Source of the DNA: Nocardiopsis endophytica
Lineage (GTDB): Bacteria > Actinomycetota > Actinomycetes > Streptosporangiales > Streptosporangiaceae
Assembly (NCBI RefSeq): GCF_027706725.1
Contig: NZ_JAQFWQ010000072.1
Location: 1 to 37,488, forward strand
Length of the DNA stretch: 37,488 nt
Reading direction: 5' to 3'
In this document: in pieces, positions 1-33,454 of the stretch
Layout of the letters: every line of letters begins with the position of its first letter
Position numbering within the stretch: position 1 is the first letter of the stretch
Made by a program: the position numbers and the translations under genes
The notes under the pieces: model-generated
Told to the model about the DNA's origin: nothing
Seen by the model: the letters and a program-made list of their open reading frames with translations, nothing else
The model's database searches: none

Positions 1-70
1 TCTGCCGGGAGTGGCGCCGCTCCGCCAGTCGCAGCGGCGGGGTGGCGGGCATTCCGAGATCGACGGACAT
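1..70 (-). CDS. ispG: 4-hydroxy-3-methylbut-2-enyl diphosphate synthase (IspG/GcpE), N-terminus only
   Basis: The minus strand from 70 down to 1 encodes a 23-residue start, [12 protein letters not shown] followed by LRLAERRHSRQ. This matches the well-conserved N-terminus of actinobacterial IspG proteins (LGMP...LAxRRxSRQ). The gene runs off the window. Its ATG (70-68) shares a base with the TGA stop of dxs (72-70), so the two are translationally coupled. IspG is the Fe-S enzyme that converts MEcPP to HMBPP in the MEP pathway, the step just before IspH, which is encoded two genes upstream in the same operon. The partial length means only the family can be stated. The assignment rests on this short motif plus operon context. 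Confidence 0.8.
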   Translation of the reverse strand, partial: MSVDLGMPATPPLRLAERRHSRQ

Positions 71-1893
71 CACTTCTCCTCCGCTGTGGACATTCGTGCC
101 AGTTCGCCGTCCCATTCCCCGTCCTCGGAGCCCCCATCGATCGCCGCGAGCGCCTCGGAGACGGACAGGGAGATGTCCTGGACGGTCAGGCCGCACAGGG
201 AGAGCACGTCCGCCCGGCTCCCGTGGTCGAGGAACCTCCGGGGAACCCCGAACGAGCGCACCGGGGTGGTGACCCCCGCGTCCTGGACCGCCTGCGCCGT
301 GGTCGCCCCGACGCCGCCGGTGCGGCTGTTGTCCTCGACCGTGGCCACCAGGCGGTGCCGCCGCGCCATGTCCGCGAGGCCGGGGTTGACCGGCGCCACC
401 CAGCGGGGGTCGACGACGGTGACGCCGATCCCCTGCTCGCGCAGCGCGTCGGCGACACCGAGGGCGACCCCGGCCAGCACGCCGACGGAGACGATGAGCA
501 CGTCCAGCGGGCCGCTCCTGCGCAGCACGTCCACCCCGGAGAAGACCGCCTCGGCGGGCACGTCCCCGCCCACCGCCCCCTTGGGGAAGCGGACCAGGGT
601 GGGGCCGTCCTCCCAGGCCACCGCCTCCTCCAGCAGCTCTCCCAGGCGCGTGGCGTCGCGGGGGGCGGCGATCCTCAGGTTCGGCACCACCTGGAGCACC
701 GACATGTCCCACACCCCGTTGTGGCTGGGGCCGTCGTCCCCGGTGACCCCCGACCGGTCCAGGACGAAGGTGACCGCGCGGCGGTGCAGCGCCACGTCCA
801 TCAGCACCTGGTCGAGCGCGCGGTTGACGAAGGTGGAGTAGATGGCCACCACCGGGTGCACGCCGCCCATCGACATGCCCGCCGCCATGGTCACCGCGTG
901 CTGCTCGGCGATGCCCACGTCGATGACCCGCTCGGGGAACCGCTTCTGCATGCCCAGCAGCCCCACCGGCTCCAGCATGGCGGCGGTCACCGCCACCACG
1001 TCCTCGCGCCGCTCGGCGATCTCGGTGATCCGCTCGCCGAAGACCGCGGTGAAGGAGGTCCCCGAGGAGGAGGACAGCGGTCGGCCGGTCGCGGGGTCCA
1101 TCGGCTTGACGGCGTGCCCCCGGTCCAGCTCGTTGTCCTCGGTGTGCACGAACCCGCGCCCCTTCTCGGTGACGGCGTGCACCACCACCGGCATGCGCAG
1201 GTCCCGGGCGCGGCGCAGCGCCTCCTGCAGCGCGGCGATGTCGTGCCCGTCCACCGGCCCGATGTAGGCCAGCCCGACCTGCTCGAAGACGCTGTGCGCG
1301 GAGCCGCGGGAGCGCAGGTCGCCGAAGTGCCCGGCCACCCCGCCCGGGGTGAGGGCGTAGGAGCGCTCGTTGTCGTTGAGCACGATGACCAGCGGGCGGT
1401 CCGCGCCGGACACGTTGTTCACGGCCTCCCAGGCCATGCCGCCGGTCATGGCGCCGTCGCCGATGACGGCGACCACCGACCGGTCGGTCCTGCCGGCGTA
1501 GGCGTCCGCACGGGCCAGGCCGTCGGCGTAGGACACCGCGGTGGAGGCGTGCGAGTTCTCCACCAGGTCGTGCTCGGACTCGGCCGGGGAGGGGTACCCC
1601 GACAGCCCTCCGCCCTTGCGCAGCCGCTCGAACCCGGCGCGCCGGCCCGTCAGCAGCTTGTGCACGTACGACTGGTGGCCGGTGTCCCAGAGCAGCCGGT
1701 CCCGGGGCGATTCGAAGACGGTGTGCAGCGCGATCGTCAGCTCGACGACCCCCAGGTTGGGGCCCAGGTGCCCGCCGGTGGCGGAGACCCGTTCGATCAG
1801 GAACGCCCGGATCTCCGCCGCGAGTTCGGTGAGTTGGTCCGCGGTCATGCCGCGCAGCCGCGCGGGACCGTCGACCTGGTCGAGCAGGGACAT
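70..1893 (-). CDS. dxs: 1-deoxy-D-xylulose-5-phosphate synthase
   Basis: This is a 607-residue thiamine-diphosphate enzyme that condenses pyruvate and glyceraldehyde-3-phosphate in the first, rate-setting step of the MEP pathway. Visible landmarks are GDGAMTGG at about residues 145-152 with a following VNN (ThDP/Mg binding), EKGRG, and [15 protein letters not shown] in the pyrimidine-binding domain. Length is normal for the family. The ATG at 1893 is preferred over an in-frame GTG at 1899, because an AAGGAG ribosome site (1904-1899) lies 5 nt upstream of that ATG and overlaps the GTG. The gene sits between the prenyl synthase and ispG. A dxs copy inside such an operon usually boosts isoprenoid supply for a specialised terpenoid; that role is inferred. 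Confidence 0.95.
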
Positions 1894-1941
1894 GTTCACT
1901 CCTTAGACCGCCGGTGGGCGGTGCGGCGTGCAGGGGTGCCG

Positions 1942-2985
1942 TCAGCGGTCGCGGTAGGCGACCTCGCGGGCCATCGCGGCGAGCTCGTCCCGCCAGGCCG
2001 GGGGGACCCCGGGACGGTCCAGCGCGTCCAGGGCCTCCTGGTGGAGGCCGTCGATGCGGGCCTCGATCTCCTCGCCGATGGCGATCTCGGTGAGGCGCCG
2101 GCGCAGCGCGGGCACGTCCCACTCCTCCGCCGACACCAGGGCGCGCACGCCCGCGTCCCGCCGCACCGCCGTGGCCAGCAGCAGGGTCATCTTGTTCCGT
2201 TCCAGGTCCAGGCCGACCGGCTTGCCCGCCGCGCCGCCGTCCCCGTAGGCGTCGATGAGGTCGTCGCGGAGCTGGAACGCCTCCCCCAGCGCCTCGCCGT
2301 ACCGCTCGAAGACGGGGGCCAGGTCGGTCCGGCCGGTGAGGGAGGCGCCCAGGAGCAGGGGCCGGTGGATGCTGTACCGGCCCGACTTGCACACCGCGAT
2401 CCACCGGGACAGCCCGGGGTCGACCACCGACTCGGCCGCCACCGCCACGTCCAGGTGCTGTCCGATGACGATCTCGGTGAGCAGCTCGTTCCAGACCGCG
2501 CGGGCCTGCGGCGGCAGGCCGGCGGTGAGCCGGTCGGCGAGGATGTCCGCCAGGTCCCCGGCCAGGACGGCCACGCCCTCCCCGTACCGGCGCGACTCAC
2601 CCCGCCACCCGCGCGCGGCGTGCTCGGCGGCGTGCTTGGTGTGCACCGCCGGCCGGCCCCGGCGCTCGTCGGCGGCGTCCAGGACGTCGTCGTGGATCAG
2701 CGCGCCGACGTGGATCAGCTCCAGGGCCGCCGCGCAGTCCACCGCGAGCCCGCTGTCGGGGTCCCCGCCGGCGGCGAGGAACCCGCTGAGGCAGAAGGCC
2801 GGCCGCAGCCGCTTGCCCCCCGCCTCGACCAGGTGGGCCACGGACGCCGCCGGGGAGGCGCCCCGCGGGTCGACCGCGGACCACCGCGCGCGCTCGGTGT
2901 CCAGCACGCCGGCGAGCCGCTCCTCCACCCGCGCGAGCAGGCGCAGGCGCAGGCCGTGGACCTCTTCGTCCGCCGAAACCGTCAT
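1942..2985 (-). CDS. Polyprenyl diphosphate synthase, trans-type (GGPP synthase-like)
   Basis: This 347-residue class I prenyltransferase elongates allylic diphosphates with IPP. The first Asp-rich motif is DDVLD (residues 99-103) and the second is DDLID (241-245). GGKRLRP near residues 56-62 and K200 in the CKSGRYS segment are also typical. Residues 4 and 5 before the first motif are Ala and Gly rather than aromatic, which by the usual chain-length rule argues for C20 or longer rather than FPP. A GGAGGAG ribosome site precedes the ATG. The gene lies 31 nt after ispH and 48 nt before dxs. Product length (GGPP versus longer) is inferred. No terpene cyclase or prenyl-accepting partner is visible in the window. 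Confidence 0.9.
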   Translation of the reverse strand: MTVSADEEVHGLRLRLLARVEERLAGVLDTERARWSAVDPRGASPAASVAHLVEAGGKRLRPAFCLSGFLAAGGDPDSGLAVDCAAALELIHVGALIHDDVLDAADERRGRPAVHTKHAAEHAARGWRGESRRYGEGVAVLAGDLADILADRLTAGLPPQARAVWNELLTEIVIGQHLDVAVAAESVVDPGLSRWIAVCKSGRYSIHRPLLLGASLTGRTDLAPVFERYGEALGEAFQLRDDLIDAYGDGGAAGKPVGLDLERNKMTLLLATAVRRDAGVRALVSAEEWDVPALRRRLTEIAIGEEIEARIDGLHQEALDALDRPGVPPAWRDELAAMAREVAYRDR

Positions 2986-3016: not shown

Positions 3017-3961
3017 TCAGACCGCCGGGCGGGTCAGTTTGGCCGGGGGCGAGAACACCACGTCCTCGGTCGCGACGCGGTCGGTCACCACGTTCCGGTA
3101 GCCGTGGCCGGCCAGGACCTCCAGGAGCTCCTCGACGAGGACGTCGGGAGCGCTGGCGCCGGCGCTGACGCCCACGGTCTCCACCCCCTCCAGCCACTCC
3201 GCGGAGAACTCGCCCGCGTCCGGCACCAGGTGCGCCGGGGTCCCCATGCCGCGGGCGACCTCGACCATCCGGATCGAATTGCTGGAGTTGCGCGACCCGA
3301 CCACCAGGACCAGGTCGCTGACGGGCGCGACGCTCTTGATCGCGTCCTGGCGGTTCTGGCTCGCGTAGCAGATGTCGTCGGTCCCCGGACCGCGCAGGTC
3401 GGTGAAGCGCCGCTGGAGGACCGCGATGATGTCCCGGGTCTCGTCGACCGAGAGCGTGGTCTGGGTGAGGTAGGCCGCAGGGGTGTCCGGCGGCAGGTCG
3501 AGCGCCTCGGCGTCGGCGGCGGTCTCGACGATGACCGTGCGCTCCGGCGCGTGCCCGTAGGTGCCCTCCACCTCCTCGTGGTCGGCGTGCCCGATGAGGA
3601 ACAGCACCCGGTCCTCCCGGGCGAAGCGCACCGCCTGCTGGTGGACCTTGGAGACCAGCGGGCAGGTCGCGTCGATCACGTCCAGCGACCGCGACTCCGA
3701 CACCCGGCGCACCTCGGGGGAGACCCCGTGCGCGGAGAACACGCAGACCGCGCCCTCGGGGACCTCGCTCTCGGAGTCGACGAAGACGGCGCCGCGCTCC
3801 CGCAGCAGCCGGACCACGTAGTGGTTGTGGACGATCTCCTTGCGGACGTAGACGGGCGGACCGTACTTCTCAAGGGCGAGTTCGATGATCGAGATCGCAC
3901 GGCGCACCCCCGCGCAGAAGCTCCGAGGTTCCGCGAGTACGACCCTTCTTCCCTGGGGCAT
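3017..3961 (-). CDS. ispH: 4-hydroxy-3-methylbut-2-enyl diphosphate reductase (IspH/LytB)
   Basis: This 314-residue [4Fe-4S] enzyme reduces HMBPP to IPP and DMAPP, the last MEP step. The three cluster ligands are visible at Cys16 (SFCAGVRR), Cys100 (DATCPLVSK) and Cys198 (DICYASQNRQDA). The conserved HNH (about 45-47) and SAHG (about 77-80) segments are also present. The ATG at 3961 is chosen because GGAGG lies 7 nt upstream (3973-3969); an upstream ATG at 4012 would add 17 poorly conserved residues. This is the first gene of the minus-strand isoprenoid operon, divergent from the SRPBCC/nitrite operon with a 199-bp gap between start codons. Confidence 0.95.
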   Translation of the reverse strand: MPQGRRVVLAEPRSFCAGVRRAISIIELALEKYGPPVYVRKEIVHNHYVVRLLRERGAVFVDSESEVPEGAVCVFSAHGVSPEVRRVSESRSLDVIDATCPLVSKVHQQAVRFAREDRVLFLIGHADHEEVEGTYGHAPERTVIVETAADAEALDLPPDTPAAYLTQTTLSVDETRDIIAVLQRRFTDLRGPGTDDICYASQNRQDAIKSVAPVSDLVLVVGSRNSSNSIRMVEVARGMGTPAHLVPDAGEFSAEWLEGVETVGVSAGASAPDVLVEELLEVLAGHGYRNVVTDRVATEDVVFSPPAKLTRPAV

Positions 3962-4100
3962 TCGGCTGCCTCCGATCCGCTCGGGTTCACTGCGCGCGCT
4001 GACGGCAGGCAAGCTATTCGGCGCCCGGAGGGGTGCCCCAGCGGCCGCGGGAATCTAGATCAGGTCGCGGCCGGGCCCGCCGCACGGGCGGGCGGGGACT

Positions 4101-4160: not shown

Positions 4161-4718
4161 ATGAGCGCTTCCCTGACTTCCATCGTCGAATCGCGGCCGC
4201 TGTTCGAGCTCGACGCGCGGATCCCCGTGGAGGCCCCGCCCGCGGAGGTCTACCGGGTCGTCAGCGACCTGCCCCGCAGCGCCGAGTGGAGCCCGGAGTG
4301 CCGCGGCGGCACGTGGGTCTCCGGCGCGCCCGGCGCGGTGGGATCGGTCTTCCGCGGCGAGAACCACCGCCCCGACGACGTCGTTGGGTGGGCCCCCCTG
4401 GTCCGCGGGACCTGGCACACCGAGGCCCGGGTGGTCCGGGCCGAGCCCGGGCGCTCCTTCGCCTGGATGATGCTCTCCCACGCCGGCGCGGACCAGGAGA
4501 GCGTGTGGGGCTTCGACATCGAGCCCGCCGGAGAGGGGGCGGGGTCGGTGCTGGTGCACCGCTTCCGCATGGGCACCGCCACCGCCGGCATCCGCAAGAT
4601 CGTCGCCGACCTCGACGAAGAGGCGCGCGAACGGTTCATCGAGGAGTGGACCGACAAGATCGCCTCGGACCTCGACGCGACCCTCGCGCGGATCAAGGCC
4701 GTGATCGAGGAGGGCTGA
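4161..4718 (+). CDS. SRPBCC / START-like superfamily protein
   Basis: This 185-residue protein has the pattern of the polyketide-cyclase/dehydrase-type SRPBCC fold: an N-terminal strand with VEAPPAEVYRVVSDLPRSAEWSPEC, a central beta-rich part and a long C-terminal helix ending in IKAVIEEG. The fold makes a hydrophobic pocket used by cyclases, dehydratases and carrier proteins, and the exact activity cannot be read from sequence. The ATG at 4161 is preferred over a GTG at 4122 because the extra residues look non-conserved and the putative -10 lies between the two. It is the first gene of a plus-strand operon with the adenylating ligase (43-nt gap), CreE-like and CreD-like genes, so a role in handling the substrate or product of that pathway is likely but unproven. 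Confidence 0.85.
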   Translation: MSASLTSIVESRPLFELDARIPVEAPPAEVYRVVSDLPRSAEWSPECRGGTWVSGAPGAVGSVFRGENHRPDDVVGWAPLVRGTWHTEARVVRAEPGRSFAWMMLSHAGADQESVWGFDIEPAGEGAGSVLVHRFRMGTATAGIRKIVADLDEEARERFIEEWTDKIASDLDATLARIKAVIEEG

Positions 4719-4761: not shown

Positions 4762-6348
4762 ATGCTGCTGCAACGCATCAACAACCCGGGCATCCGCCTG
4801 GGCACGCTGTTCGACCGGGCGGCGGCCCGGCACCCGGCGAGCCCCGTGATCCTCGACCACGACCTGGACATCGCCCCGGAACGGGGACGCCGCCTGACCC
4901 TGACCGAGCTGGCCGACCTGGTCTCCGACACCGCCTCCCGGCTGTGGTCGGTCCGGGTGCGCCCGGGCGACCACGTCGTCGTGCACAAGTCCGACGGGTT
5001 CGACATCTCCCTGCTGGCCTGCGCGGTGGCGCGGATCGGGGCGATCCCGGTGATGCTCTCCCCCAAGCTGGACGGGGCCACCGTCGCCGAGCTGCTGCGC
5101 CGGGTGGACCGCCCCTACCTGCTCACCGACGGGGCCAAGCTGGAGGGGTCGCTGCCCGAGGAGGTCCTCGGGCTGAGCGAGCGGGTGCTGCTGGCCTCCG
5201 GTGACCACCCCGGCGCCACACCGCTGGCCGCGCTGGCCGGGTGCGCACGGGTCCGCCCGGTCACCATGCCGCCGCAGCACCCCACCATGGTCACGCACAC
5301 CTCCGGCACGACCGGCGTCCCCAAGCTGGCCGTGCACACCGGGCACACCTTCCAGGCGCGCTACCGCCCCCAGGCCGCGGTGGTCGCCGCCGCCGTGGCG
5401 CGCAGCGAGCCGGTCGCCGTGCACGTGTCCTTCGTGCACTCGCGCATGTACACCGCGATGCCGATCTCGGTGCTGCAGGGCCACCCGCTGATCGTGCTGC
5501 GCGACGACGACCCCGCGTCGGTGGCCGAGGTGTTCACCCGGGTGCGCCCCGGGTTCATCGAGGCCCACCCCAACACCTTCCTGCGCTGGGAGGAGCTGGC
5601 CGACGCCCCCGGCGCCCCGCTGGCCAACGTGAAGTACTTCAGCAGCACCTTCGACGCGATCCACCCGCGGACCGTGCAGCGCATGCTGTCGGCGTCCCGC
5701 CGCTCCCTGCCGCTGTTCGCCCAGGCCTACGGGCAGAGCGAGGTCGGCCCGATCGCGGCCCGCACCTACAGCCGCCGCGGCGGCGCCGACTTCGACGGGC
5801 GCTGCGTGGGCCGCCCCTTCCCCGGCATGACCGGGGTCCGGGTGGTCAGCCGCGACGGCCGGCCGGTGACCCGGGACAACCCCGGCTTCATCGAGGTCAC
5901 CAGCGACGGCCGGATCGTCACCTACCTGGGCGAGCACCACCGCTGGGAGAAGCAGGCCCGGGGCGGCTGGTGGCGGATGGGCGACCTGGGCTACCGGACC
6001 CCCTGGGGCTGCCTGCACCTGCTGGACCGGGAGGTCGACGAGATCCCCGGCATCGCCAGCACGCTGGAGCTGGAGGACAAGCTCTTCACCCGCCTGCCCG
6101 ACCTGGTCGAGGTGGTGATCGTGCCGTCCCCGGACGGCACGGCGGTGCCCGTGGTCGCCACCCGCGGCGACCGGCCGCTGGACGAGGGCGCCTGGCGGCG
6201 GGCCGTCGCCGACCTGCCCCCGCTCGGCGCCCCGGTGCACCGGCGGCTGGACGAGCTTCCGCAGACCGCCACCACGAAGATCAAGCGGATCGAGCTGGCC
6301 GGCCGCTTGGCCTCGGAGGGCGCCGTCCCCTCCGAGCGGACCCGGTGA
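4762..6348 (+). CDS. Class I adenylate-forming ligase, candidate nitrite-using diazotase (CreM-like)
   Basis: This 528-residue ANL-superfamily enzyme shows the full adenylation core: THTSGTTGVPK (178-188, phosphate loop), YGQSE (323-327), D408 in WWRMGDLGY, the hinge LLDREVDE (about 420-427) and the catalytic Lys506 in TATTKIKR. Such enzymes activate carboxylates as acyl-AMP and usually make CoA esters. In the cremeomycin and avenalumic-acid systems, however, homologues encoded beside nitrous-acid genes carry out ATP-dependent diazotisation with nitrite. The same neighbourhood here (GTGA overlap with the CreE-like gene) makes that role attractive. An ordinary acyl-CoA ligase remains possible. 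A GGAAG ribosome site precedes the ATG. Confidence 0.88.
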   Translation: MLLQRINNPGIRLGTLFDRAAARHPASPVILDHDLDIAPERGRRLTLTELADLVSDTASRLWSVRVRPGDHVVVHKSDGFDISLLACAVARIGAIPVMLSPKLDGATVAELLRRVDRPYLLTDGAKLEGSLPEEVLGLSERVLLASGDHPGATPLAALAGCARVRPVTMPPQHPTMVTHTSGTTGVPKLAVHTGHTFQARYRPQAAVVAAAVARSEPVAVHVSFVHSRMYTAMPISVLQGHPLIVLRDDDPASVAEVFTRVRPGFIEAHPNTFLRWEELADAPGAPLANVKYFSSTFDAIHPRTVQRMLSASRRSLPLFAQAYGQSEVGPIAARTYSRRGGADFDGRCVGRPFPGMTGVRVVSRDGRPVTRDNPGFIEVTSDGRIVTYLGEHHRWEKQARGGWWRMGDLGYRTPWGCLHLLDREVDEIPGIASTLELEDKLFTRLPDLVEVVIVPSPDGTAVPVVATRGDRPLDEGAWRRAVADLPPLGAPVHRRLDELPQTATTKIKRIELAGRLASEGAVPSERTR

Positions 6349-8345
6349 CCGGCGCGACGCGGGCGCCGGACCCCCTGGCGGTGGGGATCGTCGGCGCCGG
6401 TCCGCGCGGGCTGTCGGTGCTGGAGCGGCTGTGCGCCAACGAGCGGGCCGCACGCTCGGGCCGCCCCATCACCGTGCACCTCATCGACCCGTCGCCGCCC
6501 GGCGCGGGCGGGGTGTGGCGCCCCGGCCAGTCGCGGGTGCTGCTGATGAACACGGTGGCCTCGCAGATCACCGTGTACACCGACGACAGCGCGGACATCG
6601 GCGGGCCGGTGGAGCCCGGGCCGACGCTGTACGAATGGGCGCGCGACCTGGCGCTGTTCGGCGGGGAGGAGGCGGACGGGGCGACGCTGCGGGAGGCGCG
6701 GGCGCTCGGCCCCGACGCGTACCCGACCCGGGCGTTCTACGGACGGTACCTGCAGGCCTGCTTCGCCCGGATCGCCGGGCAGGCCCCGCCCGGGGTCCGG
6801 ATCCGGGTGCACCGCTCCCGCGCCGTGGCCATGGCCGACGTGCACGGCGTCCCCGGGGGACCCCAGGGCCTGCGCCTGGAGGACGGCACCCGGCTGAACG
6901 ACCTGGACGCCGTCGTGCTGGCGCAGGGGCACCTGGCCTCCCGGCTCACCGCGCGCCAGGAGCGCACCGCCAGCCTCGCCCGCATCCACCGGCTCACCTA
7001 CCTCACCCCCGCCAACCCGGCCGATGTGGACCTGGAGGGGATCGCCCCGGGCGCCCCCGTGCTGGTCCGGGGCCTGGGACTGACCTTCTTCGACTACATG
7101 GCGCTGCTCACCGAGGGGCGCGGCGGGCGCTTCGAGGAGCGGGACGGCCGCCTGGTCTACCGGCCCTCCGGACGGGAGCCGGTGATCCACGCCTTCTCCC
7201 GCCGGGGCGTCCCCTACCATTCCCGGGGACGGAACGAGAAGGGCGCCCACGGCCGCCACCACGCCCGGCTCCTCACCCCGGACACGGTCGCGCGGCTCCG
7301 CCGCGCCCGCCCGGAGGGCCTGCGCTTCTCCACCGACCTGTGGCCGCTGATCGCCCGGGAGGTGGAGTGCGTCTACTACGAGGCGCTCCTGGCCGCCGGG
7401 GGGCGCGCGGCGGACCGGGCGGCGTTCGCCGACCGCTACCTGCACGCCGGCGCCGGGGAGGCGGACGGCGTGCTGGACGCCTTCGCGGTTCCCCCCGGCC
7501 TCCGGTGGAGCTGGGAGCGGATCGCCCGGCCGTGCGCGGGGCGGCGGTTCGCCGACCGGGCGGACTTTCGCTCCTGGCTCCTGGACCACCTGCGCGAGGA
7601 CGTCCGCGAGGCCGAGCTGGGCAACGTGACCGGCCCGCTCAAGGCCGCGCTCGACGTGCTGCGCGACCTGCGCAACGAGATCCGGCTGGCGGTGGACCAC
7701 GGCGGCCTGGCCGGCTCGTCCTACCGGGACGAGCTGGAGGGGTGGTACACGCCGCTCAACGCCTACCTGTCCATCGGCCCGCCGCCCTCCCGGATCCGCG
7801 AGCTGATCGCGCTGATCGAGGCCGGGGTCGCCGAGGTCGCCGGGCCGGGGACCCAGGTCCGGTTCGACACCGTGCGGCCGGGGTTCACCGCCTCCTCGCC
7901 GGAGGTGCCCGGGGAGCCGGTGCGCTCCCGGGTGCTGATCGAGGCCCGGCTCCCCGAGCCCGACATCCGCCGCACCCGGGACCCGCTGCTGTGCCACCTG
8001 CTCGACACCGACCAGGCGGCCCCCTATGTCATCCGCGGCGGCCCGGGGGCGCCCTACGAGGCCGGCGGCCTCACCGTCACCGAGCGCCCCTACCGGCTGG
8101 TCGACGGCCAGGGCAGGACGCATCCGCGCCGGTTCGCCTACGGGGTGCCCACGGAGTCGGTGCACTGGGTCACCGCGGCGGGGACCCGGCCCGGCGTCGA
8201 CTCGGTCACGCTCGGCGACTCCGACGCGATCGCCCGCGCTGTGCTCGCCCTGGAGCCGGTCGCACACGTGCCCTTCGGCCTGCGGCCCGCCGGGGCCGGA
8301 GTCGACGCCGGGGCGGACGCCGGGGCCGCGGGGGTGGTCGTGTGA
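6345..8345 (+). CDS. creE: FAD/NAD(P)-dependent oxygenase, CreE-like L-aspartate N-monooxygenase (nitrosuccinate synthase)
   Basis: This 666-residue flavoprotein starts at a GTG that overlaps the ligase stop (GTGA). The N-terminal dinucleotide fold is clear: LAVGIVGAGPRGLSVLERL with GAGPRG at 17-22, followed by the IDPSPPGAGGVWRP segment typical of the NAD_binding_9 flavoprotein family. In cremeomycin, fosfazinomycin and related clusters, members of this kind (CreE, FzmM) oxidise L-aspartate to nitrosuccinate. The partner lyase (CreD, FzmL) then eliminates nitrous acid. Here the lyase gene follows immediately with a second GTGA overlap, which is the strongest support for the call. Substrate specificity itself is inferred from this pairing and not from identified active-site residues. 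Confidence 0.82.
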   Translation: MTGATRAPDPLAVGIVGAGPRGLSVLERLCANERAARSGRPITVHLIDPSPPGAGGVWRPGQSRVLLMNTVASQITVYTDDSADIGGPVEPGPTLYEWARDLALFGGEEADGATLREARALGPDAYPTRAFYGRYLQACFARIAGQAPPGVRIRVHRSRAVAMADVHGVPGGPQGLRLEDGTRLNDLDAVVLAQGHLASRLTARQERTASLARIHRLTYLTPANPADVDLEGIAPGAPVLVRGLGLTFFDYMALLTEGRGGRFEERDGRLVYRPSGREPVIHAFSRRGVPYHSRGRNEKGAHGRHHARLLTPDTVARLRRARPEGLRFSTDLWPLIAREVECVYYEALLAAGGRAADRAAFADRYLHAGAGEADGVLDAFAVPPGLRWSWERIARPCAGRRFADRADFRSWLLDHLREDVREAELGNVTGPLKAALDVLRDLRNEIRLAVDHGGLAGSSYRDELEGWYTPLNAYLSIGPPPSRIRELIALIEAGVAEVAGPGTQVRFDTVRPGFTASSPEVPGEPVRSRVLIEARLPEPDIRRTRDPLLCHLLDTDQAAPYVIRGGPGAPYEAGGLTVTERPYRLVDGQGRTHPRRFAYGVPTESVHWVTAAGTRPGVDSVTLGDSDAIARAVLALEPVAHVPFGLRPAGAGVDAGADAGAAGVVV

Positions 8346-9781
8346 GCGGCCCCTCCGACACCGGGCTGCTCTCCCCGGTCCGCGCGGGCACGCCGGTGGA
8401 GGCGGCCGTGTCCGACGAGGCGTGGCTCCAGGCGATGGTCGACGCCGAGGCCGCACTGGCCCGCGCGCAGGCCCGGCTGGGCTCGGTCCCCGAACGGGCC
8501 GCGGCGGTGATCACCGAGGCGGCCGCGGACCACGGGCTGGACCCGCGCGCGCTCGCGCTCGCCTCCCGGGAGCACGCCAACCCCGTCGTCTCCGTGGTCG
8601 CGGCGTTCACCCGGGCCGTCACCGAGCGCTCCCCCGAGGCCGCCGAGTACGTCCACCGGGGATCCACCAGCCAGGACGTCTTCGACACCGCCGCGATGCT
8701 GGTGTGCCGACGCGCCCTGGCGGCCGTCCGGGACGACCTCGCGGCGGCGGCCGACGCCCTGGAGCCGCAGGTCCGGCGGCACCGGGACACCCCGATGGCC
8801 GGGCGGACCCTCGCCCTCCAGGCGGTGCCCACCACCTTCGGCCTGAAGGCCGCCGGCTGGCGCCGGCTGTTCCTGGACGCCGCGCGGCGGATCGACCGGC
8901 TGCTCGACGGCGGCCTGCCGGTCTCGCTGGGCGGTGCGGCCGGAACCCTGGGCGGGTACCTGGAATACGCCGCGCCGCCGGCGGGAGGGGACGCCCCGGA
9001 GGACCCCGGCCGCTCCGCCGACCGCCTGGTGGAGGCGTTCGCGGCGGAGACCGGTCTGGCCCCGCAGGCCCTGCCCTGGCACGCGCTGCGCTCCCCCGTC
9101 GCGGACCTGGCCTCGGTGCTGGCGTTCACCGCCGGCGCGCTCGGCAAGGCCGCCGTGGACGTGCTCACCCTGTCCCGCACCGAGGTCGGCGAGGTCGCCG
9201 AGCCCGGGGCGCCGGGGCGGGGCGCCTCCTCGGCGATGCCGCACAAGCGCAACCCGGTCCTGGCCACGATGGTGCGCAGCGCCGCGCTCCAGGTCCCGGC
9301 GCTCGCGTCGGTCCTGCACCAGTGCCTGGCGGCCGAGGACGAGCGCTCCGCGGGGGGCTGGCACGCCGAGTGGCAGCCGCTGCGCGAATGCCTGCGGCTG
9401 ACCGGCGGGGCCGCGCACACCATGGTGGAACTGGCGCGGGGGCTGGAGCCTCGCCCGGAGCGCATGGAGCGCAACCTCCGGCTGACCGCGAGCGCGTTGA
9501 CCAGCGAGCGGGTCGCCGCGGCCCTGGCACCGGCGCTCGGGCGGGTGCGCGCCCGGGAGCTGGTGTCGGACGGCGCCGCGGAGTCGGTGCGCACCGGTCG
9601 GCCGCTGGCCGAGGCGGTGGCCGACCGGCTGGCCCGGGAGGCCGGCGGCGGGGGGCCCACGGGCGCCCCGTCCGCCGCGGAGCTCGCCGCGCTGTGCGAC
9701 CCGGCCGACTACACCGGCGCCGCCGCGGCCCTGGCCGATCGCTCCCTGGCCGATCGCTCCCTGGACGGCCGCGGCCGCTGA
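8342..9781 (+). CDS. creD: Fumarase/adenylosuccinate-lyase superfamily enzyme, CreD-like nitrosuccinate lyase
   Basis: This 479-residue lyase carries the superfamily signature GASSAMPHKRNP (294-305), which holds the flexible catalytic serine loop. It also has the upstream HRGSTSQDV segment (105-113). Its general shape resembles 3-carboxymuconate cycloisomerase-type members. Next to a CreE-type flavoenzyme the likely reaction is elimination of nitrous acid from nitrosuccinate, giving fumarate. The GTG start overlaps the creE stop. The C-terminus carries a perfect 15-bp tandem duplication (9731-9760) that doubles LADRS. The gene ends 11 nt from the convergent sensor-kinase gene. Without the CreE partner, a purine or muconate-type lyase would have been the default annotation. 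Confidence 0.85.
   Translation: MSGPSDTGLLSPVRAGTPVEAAVSDEAWLQAMVDAEAALARAQARLGSVPERAAAVITEAAADHGLDPRALALASREHANPVVSVVAAFTRAVTERSPEAAEYVHRGSTSQDVFDTAAMLVCRRALAAVRDDLAAAADALEPQVRRHRDTPMAGRTLALQAVPTTFGLKAAGWRRLFLDAARRIDRLLDGGLPVSLGGAAGTLGGYLEYAAPPAGGDAPEDPGRSADRLVEAFAAETGLAPQALPWHALRSPVADLASVLAFTAGALGKAAVDVLTLSRTEVGEVAEPGAPGRGASSAMPHKRNPVLATMVRSAALQVPALASVLHQCLAAEDERSAGGWHAEWQPLRECLRLTGGAAHTMVELARGLEPRPERMERNLRLTASALTSERVAAALAPALGRVRARELVSDGAAESVRTGRPLAEAVADRLAREAGGGGPTGAPSAAELAALCDPADYTGAAAALADRSLADRSLDGRGR
9731..9760 (+). repeat. 15-bp perfect tandem duplication in creD
   Basis: CTGGCCGATCGCTCC occurs twice head to tail (9731-9745, 9746-9760). It keeps the frame and duplicates five residues (LADRS) in the C-terminal tail of the lyase. 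It is probably a recent replication-slippage event without functional effect. Confidence 0.95.
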
Positions 9782-9785
9782 CCGG

Positions 9786-9808
9786 GCCCGCCTCAGCCGG
9801 GGGCGGGC
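9786..9808. terminator. Possible terminator between convergent creD and sensor-kinase genes
   Basis: GCCCGCC (9786-9792) and GGCGGGC (9802-9808) form a 7-bp stem with a 9-nt loop. The hairpin spans the 11-nt gap and the kinase stop codon. There is no U-tract, which is common for actinomycete terminators. Confidence 0.35.
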
Positions 9809-11010
9809 AGCCGGCCGTCCCGGGCCCGGTCCCCCTCTTCGCCCTTGCGGGGGACCGGCAGCTCCACGGCCAGGCGGAAGCGTCCCCCCGGCAGGCGCCC
9901 GGCGACGAGCCCGCCGCCGAGGGCGGCGGCCCGCTCGGAGAGGTTGACCAGGCCCCCGGAGGCGCGGTCGGCGGGGCGGTCCGGTTCGGGCCCGACGCCG
10001 TCGTTGACGATGGAGGCGGTGACCCGGCCGCACTCGCGGACGAGGAGGATCTCGCAGTTCTCGGCGGCGCTGTGGCGCAGCACGTTGGCGGTGCCCTCGC
10101 GGAGGACCGTGGCCACCGCCGTGGCCACGGCGGGCGGCAGGCCCACACCGTCGGCGTCCATCCGCACCCGCACGCCCGCGGCGGCCAGGACACCGGACAC
10201 GGACCGGCACTCCTCCTCCAGGGACAGGTCGCGGTGGCCGTGCGCCACGGTGTGCAGGTCGGCGCGGGCCCGGCGGCTGATGTCCAGGATCTCGTCCAGC
10301 TCCGTGCGGGCCCGGTCGGGGTGGCCCGGGACGAGGCGGAGCACCAGTTCGGCCTTGAGGACCATGGCGGACAGGCCGTACCCCATCAGGTCGTGCAGGT
10401 CCTTGGCGAAGCGCAGGCGCTCCCGGACCACCGCGGCCTCGGCGAGCGCCCGCTGCGCCCGCCGCAGATCGCCGAGCATCTGGCGGAACCGGGAGAGCCC
10501 GTAGACGATCAGGCCGGTGATGACCACCTGGACGGACATGAACAGGGGGTCCGAGGGGGTACCGGCCTCCAGGGTGTTGAGCAGCCGGTGGGTGAAGGCC
10601 ACGCTCGCCGCCACCGCGATGAAGACGAGCCAGCCCGCCTTGGCCGACAGCACGAACAGGACGCTTCCGGCGAGGTAGCCGGGGATCCCCATCCAGGGGT
10701 GCTGGAAGTACAGGGCGGGCAGGTACACCAGGCACGCCTGCCCCCCGATCACCGTGGAGGCGATCAGGAGGCCGCGGCGGCCGCGGCCGGGGCCGCCGGC
10801 GCTCAGGGTCAGCACCAGCTGCAGGGCGAGCATCAGGACCAGGCAGACGACCGCGAGGGCCGTCCAGTCGGGGGCGTGCGGCCCGGCCAGGGCCGCGTGC
10901 AGGTTGGTGAGGAAGATGCCGGTGATGACCGCGACCGGTACGAACCAGGCGGCCGCCCCCGCCACCGGCGGCGGGGGCGCGGGGGAGGGGGTGCTCAGGG
11001 TTGGGGTCAC
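9793..11010 (-). CDS. NarL/DesK-type sensor histidine kinase (intact phospho-acceptor)
   Basis: This 405-residue membrane kinase starts at GTG. About six hydrophobic segments fill the first 180 residues. A HisKA_3 dimerisation/phosphotransfer helix with FAKDLHDLMGYGLSAM follows (His codon at 10395-10393), then an HATPase_c domain containing an N-box-like EGTANVLRHS segment and a C-terminal GGLVNLSERAAALGG segment. The fold and helix match DesK-family kinases that pair with LuxR-type response regulators; the nearest such regulator is encoded at 24862-25467. The gene follows a paralogous kinase gene on the same strand with a 70-nt gap. Its signal is unknown. The polytopic N-terminus suggests a membrane-associated cue such as product or membrane stress. 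Confidence 0.92.
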   Translation of the reverse strand: MTPTLSTPSPAPPPPVAGAAAWFVPVAVITGIFLTNLHAALAGPHAPDWTALAVVCLVLMLALQLVLTLSAGGPGRGRRGLLIASTVIGGQACLVYLPALYFQHPWMGIPGYLAGSVLFVLSAKAGWLVFIAVAASVAFTHRLLNTLEAGTPSDPLFMSVQVVITGLIVYGLSRFRQMLGDLRRAQRALAEAAVVRERLRFAKDLHDLMGYGLSAMVLKAELVLRLVPGHPDRARTELDEILDISRRARADLHTVAHGHRDLSLEEECRSVSGVLAAAGVRVRMDADGVGLPPAVATAVATVLREGTANVLRHSAAENCEILLVRECGRVTASIVNDGVGPEPDRPADRASGGLVNLSERAAALGGGLVAGRLPGGRFRLAVELPVPRKGEEGDRARDGRLPAPG

Positions 11011-11080: not shown

Positions 11081-12277
11081 TCAGCCGAAGGCGGCGGTGG
11101 AGCGGGCGGGCTCGGGGACGGGGACCTCCAGCGCGAGGCGGAACCGGCCCTCGTCCAGATACTCGGCGGTCAGGGTGCCGCCGAGGGAGGCCGCCCTCTC
11201 GGACAGGGTGCGCAGTCCCCCGGAGCGGCCCCCCGGCGGCTCCGCCCCCGGGTCGGCGCCGTCGCAGGAGACCTCGGCGCGGACCGCGTCCCCCTCCCGG
11301 ACCACGCTGATCGCGCACTCCTCGGCCCGGGCGTGGCGCAGCACGTTCGTGGTGGCCTCGCGCAGCGCGGTGGCCAGCAGCGTGCCGACGGGGCGCGGGA
11401 GGTCCCCGTGGTCGGCGTGGATCCGCACGCGGATTCCGGCCGCCGCCAGGACCGAGCGCACCGACCGGAACTCCTCGGCCAGGGACAGGTCACGGTAGCC
11501 GTGCGCCACGGACCGGACGTCCGACAAGGCCTTGCGGCCGACCTGGAGGACCTCCTCCACTTCGTGCCGCGCCCGCTCCGGGTCGCGCTCGACCAGGCGG
11601 CGGGCCAGCTCGGTCTTGAGCGCGATCGCCGACAGCTCCTCGCCGACCAGGCCGTTGAGGTCCCGGGCGAAGCGCAGGCGCTCCGCGACGACGGCGCTGT
11701 CGGCGATGCGGGCCTGGGCACGCTCCATCTCGCCCACGAGCACCCGCAGGCAGGACAGGCCGTACACGACGAGCCCGGTGACCATCGTGGAGACGGCGGT
11801 GTAGCCGAGGGGCCACAGCTCGGCGGAGACGACGGCCTGGGCGGCGGTCGCGCCGGCGGCGACGGCGCCGAAGAGGGTGATGCCCGCGGCCCGGGGGAGC
11901 ACGAGCAGGGCGCTTCCGGCGACGAAGCCGAGCATGCCCAGCCAGCTCTGGGTGAACAGCAGCAGCGGCGGGAAGGCGATGAGCAGCTGCAGCGCGAGCA
12001 CGGCGCGCGCCGCCCGCCGGTGCTCGGGGCACCCGGCCCACCCGCACTGCAGCATCTGCAGCGCGAAGAGGGCGGCCATGCAGACGCCGGCCAGCAGGGT
12101 GGCGGCCGGGCCCAGCGCCCGGCTGTACACGTTGACGAACGCGACCACGCACATTCCGCCGAACACGGTGGCGGTGACGCCCCAGGCGAGGGTGGACGCC
12201 ATACGGGCACCGCCGGGACCCGCTGCCGGGGGGCGGCGGCCGGCCTCCGGGGTCCACTGCGTCGATTCCCTCGGCAT
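11081..12277 (-). CDS. DesK-type sensor kinase paralogue lacking the phospho-acceptor histidine
   Basis: This is a second six-TM DesK-like protein of 398 residues, clearly paralogous to its downstream neighbour across the helix and ATPase domain (AVVAERLRFARDL, VAHGYRDLSL, RSVLAAAGIRVRI). The histidine box reads FARDLNGLVGEELSAI: the acceptor histidine is Asn (AAC codon, 11656-11654) and the following acidic residue is Gly. The ATPase domain still looks complete (REATTNVLRHA; GGLRTLSERAASLGG). It is probably a catalytically one-sided or regulatory partner, perhaps forming heterodimers with the intact kinase. The ATG at 12277 is preferred because GAAGGGA lies upstream; an ATG at 12355 would add 26 residues. 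Confidence 0.88.
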   Translation of the reverse strand: MPRESTQWTPEAGRRPPAAGPGGARMASTLAWGVTATVFGGMCVVAFVNVYSRALGPAATLLAGVCMAALFALQMLQCGWAGCPEHRRAARAVLALQLLIAFPPLLLFTQSWLGMLGFVAGSALLVLPRAAGITLFGAVAAGATAAQAVVSAELWPLGYTAVSTMVTGLVVYGLSCLRVLVGEMERAQARIADSAVVAERLRFARDLNGLVGEELSAIALKTELARRLVERDPERARHEVEEVLQVGRKALSDVRSVAHGYRDLSLAEEFRSVRSVLAAAGIRVRIHADHGDLPRPVGTLLATALREATTNVLRHARAEECAISVVREGDAVRAEVSCDGADPGAEPPGGRSGGLRTLSERAASLGGTLTAEYLDEGRFRLALEVPVPEPARSTAAFG

Positions 12278-12419
12278 CCCGGTCCCTTCGGAAGGTCCAC
12301 CTGCGCCGTCGGCCCGTTCCTCGTGGCGCCCCGTGGGCCTCCGTATTCGGGGCATACAATGCCGTCCCCGGCAAACTACCCCGATTCGGTCGCCGCGTGA
12401 AGGTGTCGGCGGCCGTGCG

Positions 12420-13808
12420 TCACAGGCGCACCGCCCCGGTGGTGAGGCAGGCCAGCAGCGTGCGCGCCTGGACGTTGAGGTAGCGGCCGTGCCTGACGAG
12501 CCAGGTCAGCTGCGCGGGGGTGGCCCAGCGGTAGCCGGGCGGAGCCGCCAGGGGGGCCTCGTCCCCGTCGGCCTCCACCACCGTGTAGCAGATCCGGGCG
12601 TCCAGGAACCGCCCCCCTTCCTCGGAGAGGATCGCCCGGTAGCGGACCCGTTCCGGCGGGGCCGCGAGCACCGCCTCCAGGAAGCGCGGCCGGGCCCGGG
12701 CGGGCAGGTGCGCGTAGTTGCCCGGGGTGCACTGCACGGTCGGCCCCAGCTCCACGGTGTCCAGGAACCCGCCCTCGGCGCGGGCCTGGACGAGCACGTG
12801 CGGGACCCCGCCGATCCTGCGGACGAGGAAGGCCGCCACCCCCACCCCGCGCGGTGCCACCAGCGGCTGGCTCCACCCCGCCACCTCGCGCGTCCCCGCC
12901 CGCACCGATACCGCGACGACGTCGAAGAAGCACCCGCTCTCATGCCGCACCCGGTCGTCCTCGCGCACCCACCCGGGCAGCGGGGACAGCGGCACCTTGC
13001 GCGCGCGCACCCGGTGCCGGGAGCGCTCTCCGGTGAACCAGGACAGCAGCTCGGCATCGGCGTGCAGCGCGCGGGGGCCGTACTCCTCCACCGGCGCGCA
13101 GGCCAGCACCGTGCGGGCGTCCATGTTCACCACGCCGTCCATGCGCAGCAGCTCACCCAGGGTGCCCAGGGTGACCCAGCGGAAGTCCTCGTGCGGCGGG
13201 ACCTCCACGTCCGGGCCGACCTCGACGATCATGTTCCGGTTGCTCTTGTGCAGGAACCACGACCCGTGCTCGGACTGGAGCACGTCGGCCAGCACCCGGG
13301 CGCCGGGGCGGGTGAAGTGCTCGATGTGGCGCACGGGGCGGCCCCCGTGCGCCCGCGTGTAGTTGCTGCGGGTCGCCTGCACCGTCGGCGAGAGCTGCAC
13401 CCGGCCGGGGTTGCCGGGCTCCATCTTCGCCTGCATGAGGAAGTGCAGCACCCCGTCGATCTCCTTGGCGAGGATGCCCAGGATCCCCACCTCGGGCTGG
13501 TCGATGACGGGCTGGTACCACTCGGCCACCGGCCCGGCCTCCGAGACCACGTGCAGGCCCTCCACCGAGAAGAAGCGCCCGCTCCGGTGGGCCAGGGCGC
13601 CGGTGCCCTCGCGGAACCCCCATCCGTCCAGCTCGGCGAAGGGGATCCGCCGCACGTCGAACCCGCCCGCCTCGGCCCGTTCGCGGAGCCAGCGGACGAC
13701 GTCCCCGGCCGCGCCGCCCGTGCCCGCCGCGCCCGACCGGCGCAGCCGCGGACCGGCGGAGGCGTCGTGCCGCCACCGCAGCTCCGGGCCGAGGAGTCCC
13801 GCGGTCAC
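12420..13808 (-). CDS. TDP-4-keto-6-deoxyhexose 2,3-dehydratase (EvaA/TylX3-like)
   Basis: This 462-residue enzyme has the internally duplicated layout of the NDP-hexose 2,3-dehydratase family. Paired segments occur in both halves: VEWYQP-type versus VAGWSQPLV, LHFLMQAKMEPG versus PHVLVQARAEGG, QLSPTVQATRSNY versus ELGPTVQCTPGNY, and NMDARTVLAC versus NVQARTLLAC. It removes the C-2 hydroxyl of TDP-4-keto-6-deoxyglucose, making the 2-deoxy-3,4-diketo intermediate. No 3-ketoreductase is encoded nearby, so the intermediate most likely goes to the PLP aminotransferase at C-3, as in vancosamine-type pathways. The GTG start overlaps the rmlB stop (GTGA). This is the last gene of the sugar operon. 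Confidence 0.93.
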   Translation of the reverse strand: MTAGLLGPELRWRHDASAGPRLRRSGAAGTGGAAGDVVRWLRERAEAGGFDVRRIPFAELDGWGFREGTGALAHRSGRFFSVEGLHVVSEAGPVAEWYQPVIDQPEVGILGILAKEIDGVLHFLMQAKMEPGNPGRVQLSPTVQATRSNYTRAHGGRPVRHIEHFTRPGARVLADVLQSEHGSWFLHKSNRNMIVEVGPDVEVPPHEDFRWVTLGTLGELLRMDGVVNMDARTVLACAPVEEYGPRALHADAELLSWFTGERSRHRVRARKVPLSPLPGWVREDDRVRHESGCFFDVVAVSVRAGTREVAGWSQPLVAPRGVGVAAFLVRRIGGVPHVLVQARAEGGFLDTVELGPTVQCTPGNYAHLPARARPRFLEAVLAAPPERVRYRAILSEEGGRFLDARICYTVVEADGDEAPLAAPPGYRWATPAQLTWLVRHGRYLNVQARTLLACLTTGAVRL

Positions 13809-14815
13809 CGCGCCCCCTCTCCGGCCGCGGCCTCCAGCGGCGCCCCGGCCCCCTGCCGCAGCGGCCGCCACCAGCCGGGGTTCTCCGCGTACCAGGCCAC
13901 CGTCCGGGCCAGCCCCTCGTCGAAGGGCACCAGCGGGCGGTAGCCGAGCTCCCGCCTGATCTTGGTGTCGTCCACCGCGTAGCGGCGGTCGTGCCCGGCC
14001 CGGTCGGGGACCCACTCGATGGCCGACTCGTCCGCCCCGCACAGCGCGAGCAGCCGGCGCGTGACGGCGAGGTTGGTCGTGCCGGACCCGCCCCCCACGT
14101 TGTAGACCTCGCCCGCGCGCCCCGCGGCCAGCACCCGGTGCACCGCGCGGCAGTGGTCGTCGACGTGCAGCCACTCGCGGACGTTGCCCCCGTCCCCGTA
14201 CAGCGGGACGCGCCCGCCCTCCAGCAGGCTGGTGATGAAACGGGGGATCAGCTTCTCGGGGTGCTGATAGGGGCCGTAGTTGTTGGAGCAGCGCGTGACG
14301 CGGACGTCGAGCCCGTGGGTGCGCGCGTACGCGCGGGCGACCAGGTCCGATCCGGCCTTGGAGGCGGCGTAGGGGGAATTGGGGTCCAGCGGCTCCTCCT
14401 CGTCCCACGCCCCCTCCGCGATGGACCCGTAGACCTCGTCGGTCGACACGTGCACGACGCGCCCGACCCCCGCCGCGAGCGCGGCCTCCATCAGCGTCTG
14501 GGTGCCCAGGACGTTGGTCCGCACGAAGGCGTGGGCCCCGCCGATGGAGCGGTCCACGTGGCTCTCCGCGGCGAAGTGGACCACGGCGTCGTGCCCGGGC
14601 AGCAGACCGGCGAGCAGGTCGGCGTCGCACACGTCGCCGCGGACGATCTCCAGCCGCGGCCCCTCCTCGGGCAGGTTGGCCCTGTTCCCCGCGTAGGTGA
14701 ACAGGTCCAGGACGGTGACGCGGGCGCCCTCGGCCCCGGGCAGGGCGCCGGAGAGCAGCATCCGGACGTAGTGCGAGCCGATGAACCCGGCGGCACCGGT
14801 GACCAGGATCCTCAT
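13805..14815 (-). CDS. rmlB: dTDP-glucose 4,6-dehydratase
   Basis: This 336-residue extended short-chain dehydrogenase makes TDP-4-keto-6-deoxyglucose, the branch point for deoxysugars. The NAD-binding GAAGFIGSHY motif is at the N-terminus. The family's STDEVYG catalytic segment and YAASK (Tyr-x3-Lys) follow, with CSNNYGPYQHPEKLIPRFI typical of RmlB. Length is normal. The stop overlaps the start of the 2,3-dehydratase (GTGA), and the aminotransferase gene ends 44 nt upstream. Confidence 0.96.
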   Translation of the reverse strand: MRILVTGAAGFIGSHYVRMLLSGALPGAEGARVTVLDLFTYAGNRANLPEEGPRLEIVRGDVCDADLLAGLLPGHDAVVHFAAESHVDRSIGGAHAFVRTNVLGTQTLMEAALAAGVGRVVHVSTDEVYGSIAEGAWDEEEPLDPNSPYAASKAGSDLVARAYARTHGLDVRVTRCSNNYGPYQHPEKLIPRFITSLLEGGRVPLYGDGGNVREWLHVDDHCRAVHRVLAAGRAGEVYNVGGGSGTTNLAVTRRLLALCGADESAIEWVPDRAGHDRRYAVDDTKIRRELGYRPLVPFDEGLARTVAWYAENPGWWRPLRQGAGAPLEAAAGEGAR

Positions 14816-17015: not shown

Positions 17016-17092
17016 GGACGGCCTCCGGTGGTCGGCGGTCGCGCGCCCGCGGTCCGGAGCACCCGGGAGGGGTCCGGGGCACCGCGCGCCCC

Positions 17093-17111
17093 GGGGCGGG
17101 CGTCCCGCCCC
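17093..17111 (-). terminator. Intra-operon hairpin between 4-ketoreductase and rmlA genes
   Basis: GGGGCGGG (17093-17100) and CCCGCCCC (17104-17111) pair perfectly around a CGT loop in the 127-nt gap. It may attenuate transcription into rmlA and the four genes after it, or protect mRNA ends. Function is inferred only from structure. Confidence 0.3.
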
Positions 17112-17142
17112 TGGGCCCACATCGTCCGCGCCCGGCGCGGCC

Positions 17143-22371: not shown

Positions 22372-22539
22372 ATGGACTCGGCCACGACGGACCAGGTTCA
22401 CGACACCGGCGACGGCACCGACGCCCTCGACCTGAACATCCACGTCTTCGAGAGCTGGTCCGCCTCCCCCGAGGCCACCATGAACCCCACCACCATCACC
22501 TGGGCCGTCGCGCAAGGGCACGGCGGACCGGCGGTCTGA
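22372..22539 (+). CDS. Cysteine-free RiPP-like precursor peptide, 55 residues
   Basis: The peptide begins MDSATTDQVHDTGDGTDALD and continues LNIHVFESWSASPEATMNP, then TTITWAVAQGHGGPAV. The first half is acidic with a hydrophobic ALDLNIHVFE patch, the style of leader bound by RRE domains in azole-forming RiPP systems. The second half is rich in Ser, Thr, Asn and Gly and has no Cys. Candidate modifiable residues are Ser30, Ser32, Thr36, Thr40, Thr41 and Thr43. The stop is directly followed by the GTG of the YcaO fusion gene, so the pair is coupled. The leader/core boundary is unknown; the Ser-Trp-Ser or Met37 region are candidate starts. I do not recognise the core from any named family. Confidence 0.75.
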   Translation: MDSATTDQVHDTGDGTDALDLNIHVFESWSASPEATMNPTTITWAVAQGHGGPAV

Positions 22540-28896: not shown

Positions 28897-29000
28897 CAGC
28901 CGATCGGAGGACGCACCCGGAGAAGGGCCGTTCCCCCGCCCCCTTTCCCAGCGGTCGCGCGGGCGGTCCGCGCGGTCCGGAGCACTTCCGAAACGCCACC

Positions 29001-33429: not shown

Positions 33430-33454
33430 GGCTTCTCCGTTTCTCATCACGTTG

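Follow-up and report, generated by a model that had tools for sequence, protein, structure and literature searches.

What do two adjacent genes on a contig of Nocardiopsis endophytica, one for a flavoprotein and one for a lyase, make together, and on what is their product spent? The window analyzed is the whole 37,488-nucleotide contig NZ_JAQFWQ010000072.1 (C72) of the 7.26-Mb assembly GCF_027706725.1. The original prediction, made from its letters, had read the two genes as a cassette of the aspartate-nitrosuccinate (ANS) pathway, in which nitrous acid is made from L-aspartate. Sequence comparison confirmed the predicted enzymes as an aspartate N-hydroxylase (CreE) and a nitrosuccinate lyase (CreD), and pointed to a ligase, encoded directly beside them, that probably spends the nitrite on an aromatic amine.

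The nitrous-acid genes and their layout

The flavoprotein and lyase genes were found where they had been predicted, with the stop codon of creE and the start codon of creD within the same four letters (GTGA), and both reading frames were backed by third-position G+C. Overlooked earlier was a ligase gene directly before creE, which it overlaps by GTGA as well, preceded at a distance of 43 nucleotides by a gene for an SRPBCC protein. The two overlaps indicate a coupled unit of at least ligase, CreE and CreD. The four genes are as follows (lengths in amino acids, aa).

4161..4718 (start may be 4122), + strand: SRPBCC protein, Pzm19-like, conserved ligase partner (Pfam Polyketide_cyc2, 45.1 bits)
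4762..6348, + strand: candidate ATP-dependent diazotase, an ANL-superfamily ligase in the Pzm17/Pzm18 group, 528 aa (shares GTGA with creE)
6345..8345, + strand: CreE-type L-aspartate N-hydroxylase (nitrosuccinate synthase), 666 aa (8cp2 match, residues)
8342..9781, + strand: CreD-type nitrosuccinate lyase, 479 aa (NF052556, 5xny, residues, tree)

The family assignments of the original prediction were borne out, the flavoprotein matching NAD_binding_9 at 147.8 bits (Pfam cut-off 21.8) and the lyase matching the fumarase/adenylosuccinate-superfamily models Lyase_1 (117.6 bits, cut-off 27) and ADSL_C (39.2 bits, cut-off 32.7). Among solved structures, only 8cp2, an L-aspartate N-hydroxylase from Streptomyces sp. 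V2, was a strong relative of CreE (657 bits; 59% identical across 591 aligned residues). Of 13 residues checked in CreE, all named in PMC10404684, 12 were identical, the aspartate arginine cluster included (equivalents of Arg13, Trp51, Asn62, Arg266, Arg276, Arg409, Arg412, Asn413, Arg416, Val571, Arg577 and Arg593).

For the lyase, the NCBIfam nitrosuccinate lyase equivalog NF052556 scored 703.8 bits (cut-off 650); when 149 related genomes were searched with this model, four were above the cut-off, N. endophytica among them. The expectation that routine annotation would miss the pair therefore no longer holds for the lyase, which this model now names. The CreD structure 5xny was its best solved relative (517 bits, 65% identity over 454 residues). 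All 16 CreD positions taken from PMC13411527 were identical, including the SSxMPxKRNP loop (which, having served to anchor the CreD numbering, does not test it independently), Arg341, E49/H118 and D125/H253. Val96, Leu170, Trp346 and His347, all mutated in that work, were also kept, for a total of 20 of 20. A lyase tree had been proposed as a check, and in a tree of 36 rows the window lyase and 5xny fell in a 15-row clade (100/100) away from 1q5n, that is, with CreD and not with the muconate lyase; the lyase of one related locus (L006) fell outside this clade though it scored over the NF052556 cut-off. The aspartate-nitrosuccinate pathway is thus backed by the closest structures (5xny and 8cp2), NF052556, the active-site residues and the lyase tree.

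The ligase clade and its probable nitrite supply

Relatives of the ligase were collected by a contig scan, of which the best 80 of 138 stretches, representing 78 distinct loci, were all examined. Partner presence was scored by clustering of called genes, and nitrite genes were counted within 10 kb of the ligase. Ligase identity across the 78 loci was 60-95%. An SRPBCC protein was found in 64 loci, an underestimate because the simple gene calling used here merges or overlooks some of the SRPBCC genes, and a quinone oxidoreductase in 57 (closest NCBIfam model the PIG3 family at 155 bits, below the cut-off of 297). CreE and CreD were both present in 45 loci, CreE only in five and CreD only in one. 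With the pair also syntenic and 90-91% identical in Nocardiopsis chromatogenes, its occurrence is not attributable to chance. A NasC-like molybdopterin gene, whose product resembles NasC, an assimilatory nitrate reductase (742 bits, short of the cut-off of 1100), was found in 26 loci, seven of them without CreE/CreD, and 20 loci had none of the three genes. Many loci are cut by contig ends; among the 50 with full flanks, 42 carried CreE and/or CreD and/or a NasC-like gene (CreE and CreD in 31, 14 of these also with NasC; NasC alone in six; CreE alone in four; CreD alone in one).

At these seven NasC-bearing loci without CreE/CreD (L052, L068, L076, L078, L081, L101 and L110), NarK-NasC-NirB-like genes adjoin the ligase. 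A CreE search of the corresponding whole genomes gave no match at E 1e-30 for five of the seven, the exceptions being the genome of L068, with two CreE matches elsewhere (60-61%), and that of L052, with one distant match (39%). In one representative, the NirB-like partner of NasC aligned only to positions 1-465 of the 794-position NirB model, the second half being absent, so nitrite might accumulate. Nine genomes had a linked NasC copy at 77-100% to the query (100% being the query's own genome; in G178 the copy was split over two frames), and eight of these nine had a second NasC-like copy elsewhere (66-69%). Against a strictly linked NasC paralogue, G184 and G180 hold 77-78% copies yet have no NasC in the fetched loci. 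Gene content suggests an apparent swap of nitrite supply beside the same ligase clade, between the aspartate pathway and a nitrate-reductase set. As part of the N. endophytica cluster, NasC-like genes were rejected, none being recognized in the window or in contig C74 (described below), and the genome's two lie on C113 and C29. On C29 a further ligase gene (24595-26187) lies about 16 kb from the NasC-like gene (6179-8233); C29 is another possible nitrite-using locus, and its ligase could be a second nitrite consumer.

The window ligase was 66% identical to a Pzm18-like and 68% identical to a Pzm17-like ligase of a Streptomyces halstedii locus (L108). This locus matches the published gene table of the penzonemycin (pzm) cluster where the two overlap (quinone reductase 334 aa, Rrf2 161 aa, MFS 406 aa, acetolactate synthase 622 aa, CreE 659 aa, ligase 527 aa); certain other lengths depart from the table, depending on the starts called, and the fetched stretch stops short of the 3-hydroxyanthranilate (3-HAA) genes. 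In that table Pzm18 is given as 48/61% to CreM and Pzm17 is annotated only as an acyl-CoA ligase (PMC9323291). CreM was likened only via this Pzm18 figure, its sequence not being in the ligase tree, in which the window ligase fell in a separate 22-row clade (100/100) apart from Tri17, 8ztz and the AvaA6-type enzymes. Glu327 of the window ligase, in a YGQSE motif and invariant in 15 of 15 aligned sequences, would be the equivalent of the ATP/Mg glutamate E352 of CreM (PMC11705231). Single-ligase loci were assigned to sides by BLAST score, with the window, G001, L035 and L050 left out; local nitrite genes were present in 23 of the 30 nearer the window/Pzm17 references and in 25 of the 35 nearer the Pzm18 references. 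As judged from its sequence and neighbors, the window ligase likely acts as a diazotase.

Its SRPBCC partner showed 43 invariant columns in 28 aligned sequences, drawn from a family of 66 in the set, and this strong conservation argues for a catalytic role. The sole confident structure match of the SRPBCC profile was the uncharacterized Cgl2373 (2m47). A plasmid search returned two records in other contexts, one with a distant ligase.

The larger cluster and its predicted product

The remaining genes of the window, scanned with Pfam, are listed below.

1..70, - strand: ispG, first 23 codons, cut by the contig end (N-terminus like IspG of Nocardiopsis sp. CC223A, by eye)
70..1899, - strand: DXS of the methylerythritol phosphate (MEP) pathway
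1942..2985, - strand: polyprenyl diphosphate synthase (PPS)
3017..4012 (start may be 3907), - strand: IspH/LytB (MEP pathway)
9793..11010, - strand: membrane histidine kinase, HisKA_3
11081..12355, - strand: membrane histidine kinase, HisKA_3
12420..13808, - strand: NDP-hexose 2,3-dehydratase
13805..14815, - strand: NDP-hexose 4,6-dehydratase
14860..15969, - strand: DegT-type sugar aminotransferase
16041..17120 (start may be 17015), - strand: sugar nucleotidyltransferase
17143..18165, - strand: NAD-dependent epimerase/4-ketoreductase-type enzyme
18162..18791, - strand: dTDP-sugar 3,5-epimerase type
18788..19525, - strand: S-adenosylmethionine (SAM) methyltransferase
19522..20772, - strand: NDP-hexose C-methyltransferase
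21028..22233, + strand: acyltransferase (Acyl_transf_3)
22372..22539 (open reading frame, ORF, can begin 22327), + strand: putative precursor of a ribosomally synthesized and post-translationally modified peptide (RiPP)
22540..24837, + strand: TOMM (thiazole/oxazole-modified microcin) cyclodehydratase, E1-like + YcaO (TIGR03604 259.1 > 219.25; TIGR03882 138.4 > 36.9)
24862..25467, - strand: LuxR-type response regulator
25657..29256 (start may be 28896), - strand: large SARP-type regulator
29192..30592, + strand: GH29 alpha-L-fucosidase family protein
30631..31737, + strand: EryCIII-type glycosyltransferase
31792..33450 (start may be 33387), - strand: MFS exporter
33455..34117, - strand: NADPH-dependent FMN reductase family
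34346..35557, + strand: cytochrome P450
35576..36445 (start may be 35648), + strand: PhyH-type dioxygenase
36517..37206 (start may be 36616), + strand: NADPH-dependent FMN reductase family

The cluster probably continues on contig C74, whose end holds the last codons of ispG, preceded by genes for UbiA and isopentenyl diphosphate isomerase (IDI), and which further in carries genes for a quinone reductase, a regulator, an IS701-type protein, DAHP synthase, an SDR, isochorismatase, a PhzE-type enzyme, an FMN reductase and an MFS protein. The adjacency of C74 and C72 is suggested by their ends, which carry the two ends of ispG; the sole full ispG found in the assembly is elsewhere, on C140. In Nocardiopsis sp. 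CC223A the run UbiA-IspG-DXS-PPS-IspH is contiguous, and positions 1-40403 of one contig hold CreD-CreE-ligase, the quinone reductase, SRPBCC, the UbiA-to-IspH run, the 3-HAA genes, most sugar genes, the glycosyltransferase, PhyH and IDI. That contig had no match to YcaO, the C-methyltransferase, the acyltransferase, the fucosidase, the P450 or the FMN reductase, and the CC223A genome had no close YcaO relative. One stretch of Kibdelosporangium persicum holds the 3-HAA genes, ligase, CreE, sugar genes, glycosyltransferase and PhyH together with IspH-PPS-DXS-IspG, a UbiA-like protein, YcaO and a precursor peptide; creD and creE are some 26 kb apart there. In another Nocardiopsis genome (G001) the UbiA contig begins at the ispG end and the DXS contig ends just past DXS. 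The cluster is sporadic in Nocardiopsis, since its UbiA gene was unmatched in three genomes (G002, G003 and G005) and the match in a fourth (G004) was at just 45%.

From these genes we propose, as the reading we favor with good though incomplete confidence, that the SRPBCC-ligase-CreE-CreD operon makes nitrite and spends it immediately, that the ligase diazotizes an amine of the 3-HAA type, and that the core is prenylated and amino-glycosylated. CreE would convert L-aspartate to nitrosuccinate (with NADPH and O2), and CreD would cleave nitrosuccinate to fumarate and nitrite. The ligase would activate nitrite with ATP for transfer to the aromatic amine, most likely 3-HAA or a prenylated form of it made by C74 genes, giving a diazo/diazonium (quinone diazide) intermediate. 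The UbiA enzyme, fed by the cluster-borne MEP genes, would prenylate the aromatic core, to which a branched amino sugar would be added.

The quinone reductase could then put hydride in place of the diazo group, perhaps with SRPBCC assisting in binding or catalysis; alternatively, the N-N bond could be retained. An even chance is given to reductive removal of the nitrogen as N2 by the quinone reductase, a fate favored by the AvaA7 precedent (PMC10777205) and by the presence of a quinone reductase in 57 of the 78 loci. Retention of the N-N bond is possible but somewhat less probable; it is favored because the penzonemycins are hydrazones (PMC9323291, where the pathway is a proposal only), and against it the pzm cluster too holds a quinone reductase. 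Replacement of the diazo group by oxygen is unlikely. The original prediction suggested that the cluster may build a diazo, hydrazine, N-nitroso or nitro group; in our judgment, departure of the nitrogen as N2, as in the avenalumic and p-coumaric acid pathways, is no less likely.

Several further observations concern individual genes of these clusters. An IS701-type transposase-like gene occurs in several of them (L132:15755-17002, C74 and contig 37 of CC223A); in the latter two it adjoins the gene for DAHP synthase, and pzm10 is likewise a transposase (PMC9323291); it is either a recruited protein or a mark of mobility. In N. chromatogenes, L036:1-9000 carries genes for a terpene synthase (PF19086), for two encapsulin shell proteins of family 2B and for a polyprenyl synthase as cargo, which lie beyond the cluster and were judged a separate neighbor. 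The precursor peptide and its equivalent in N. chromatogenes are 83% identical over 59 residues. Sets of a small ORF, YcaO, kinase and regulator occur in K. aridum and Streptomyces LHD-70, the latter also with a SagB-type nitroreductase, and the ligase is absent from the fetched stretches. Because similar sets occur elsewhere without the ligase, the peptide, E1-YcaO, response regulator and two kinases are perhaps mobile and may form a RiPP signaling cassette for turning clusters on. Family scans of the window genes recognized no LanB-type dehydratase, and the YcaO gene was therefore not taken as a sign of a thiopeptide. The GH29 protein (29192-30592) adjoins the glycosyltransferase, has no hydrophobic stretch by hydropathy and may contribute to self-protection or trimming.

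Alternatives, precedents and significance

Several findings weigh against the proposed pathway. In CreE, Arg597 at the tunnel mouth is replaced by alanine (Ala635), and the lyase narrowly passes the muconate-cycloisomerase (PcaB) model TIGR02426 (358.4 against 355.75, a margin of 2.65 bits). The group of the window ligase is a long branch apart from the Tri17/AvaA6-type enzymes, with AvaA6-type matches 25-27% identical, and within the 22-row clade the ligase lies on the Pzm17 and not the Pzm18 side, in a tree for which the program warns that long branches meet. Against the AvaA6 equivalog NF058622 it scored 86-87.3 bits (cut-off 975), only the third-best match to that model in its own genome, where the C29 ligase reached 411 bits. 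Eight of the 50 full-flank loci had no nitrite gene nearby, and the C74-C72 junction was deduced from the two ispG ends. The genome also has two more PhzE-type sets, on C53 and C151, each, like that of C74, with DAHP synthase and isochorismatase, so 3-HAA supply is not unique to C74.

Some of these points would suit a different use of the nitrite, in which CreE and CreD make it, the neighboring ligase activates a carboxylate (e.g., 3-HAA or a prenylated benzoate), and another ligase or N-nitrosation of the amino sugar consumes it. The ligase keeps ordinary ANL motifs, with an A10-type lysine, stands far from the Tri17/AvaA6 clade on the side of Pzm17, the annotated acyl-CoA ligase, and is surpassed by the C29 ligase in nearness to the AvaA6 model; the window, moreover, holds a full amino-sugar set. 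This use is nonetheless rather improbable, since nitrite genes are about equally frequent on both ligase sides and in the majority of loci the SRPBCC-ligase pair is retained while no sugar genes were recognized within 10 kb. Far less credible still is a hydrazine-type pathway as in fosfazinomycin and kinamycin (FzmM-FzmL with a KinJ-type heme enzyme). Its CreE/CreD chemistry would be the same and a P450 is present in the window, but the genes that accompany CreE/CreD encode an ANL ligase and SRPBCC, and the route was rejected because its partners differ. No hydrazino cassette or heme enzyme of the kind given in PMC12154649 was recognized in Pfam scans of the window genes, KinJ itself not having been searched directly. 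Of the two parallels drawn in the original prediction, FzmM-FzmL is the weaker analogy, because the neighbors are of the CreM/Pzm-like ligase type and no hydrazine cassette was recognized in those scans. Least probable of all is a degradative muconate- or adenylosuccinate-type lyase beside an unrelated flavoprotein, with no nitrite formed. The TIGR02426 pass and the fact that Pfam sees only Lyase_1 and ADSL_C speak for it; against it stand the NF052556 score, the 20 conserved CreD positions, the 100/100 clade with CreD and the aspartate arginine cluster of CreE, and a PcaB/PurB-type lyase was rejected on the tree and residues.

Several described systems come close to this one. The cremeomycin genes CreE-CreD-CreM likewise combine a flavoprotein and a lyase for nitrous acid from aspartate with an ATP-dependent ligase, but there the amine is a substituted 3-aminobenzoate (PMC11705231), whereas the N. 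endophytica cluster has an SRPBCC partner along with genes for 3-HAA, isoprenoids and an amino sugar. The pzm cluster (PMC9323291), whose gene roles are proposals and not assays, shares SRPBCC (Pzm19), the CreM-type ligase (Pzm18), CreE/CreD (Pzm12/11), the quinone reductase (Pzm13) and the 3-HAA genes (Pzm6-9); it differs in having two ligases and an acetolactate synthase, with no isoprenoid/sugar set in the available rows of its table. The avenalumic and p-coumaric acid clusters (AvaA6/CmaA6 with AvaA7, PMC10777205) share the ANS pathway and an ANL diazotase, and their diazo group is lost by hydride substitution; AvaA6-type ligases belong to another clade, and no AvaA7 counterpart was identified here, the quinone reductase being a candidate. 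In L-alanosine clusters without ANS genes, nitrate/nitrite reductases are proposed to replace the ANS pathway (PMC11705231); the product there is a diazeniumdiolate, whereas here the nitrate-reductase-like set adjoins the window-type ligase clade.

The two-gene CreE-CreD cassette is an already known pathway. In the open-licence PMC literature no description of a 3-HAA/UbiA/amino-sugar cluster was found, and for SRPBCC with diazotization the protein was named only in PMC9323291. Measured against that literature, two features look new: the setting of the cassette in a predicted meroterpenoid cluster with amino-sugar genes, and the nitrate-reductase set that stands as an alternative next to the window-type ligase clade.

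These results tie the nitrous-acid pathway to a ligase clade represented in each of the 78 loci examined, one of which can be linked to a published product, and predict 3-HAA as substrate and SRPBCC and a quinone reductase as partners for that clade. If the nitrate-reductase neighbors supply nitrite, the producers would have two routes to one reagent. More tentatively, a conserved quinone reductase-SRPBCC-ligase module may diazotize 3-HAA and release its nitrogen as N2, turning a nitrogen-bearing shikimate unit into a phenolic acid free of nitrogen that is then prenylated and joined to an amino sugar, which would make a new class of bacterial meroterpenoid glycosides; either the aspartate pathway or an assimilatory nitrate reductase copy dedicated to the module could supply the nitrite. 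Judging by its genes, the N. endophytica cluster, with relatives in Nocardiopsis and Kibdelosporangium, should make an unknown prenylated aromatic (meroterpenoid) with an amino sugar.

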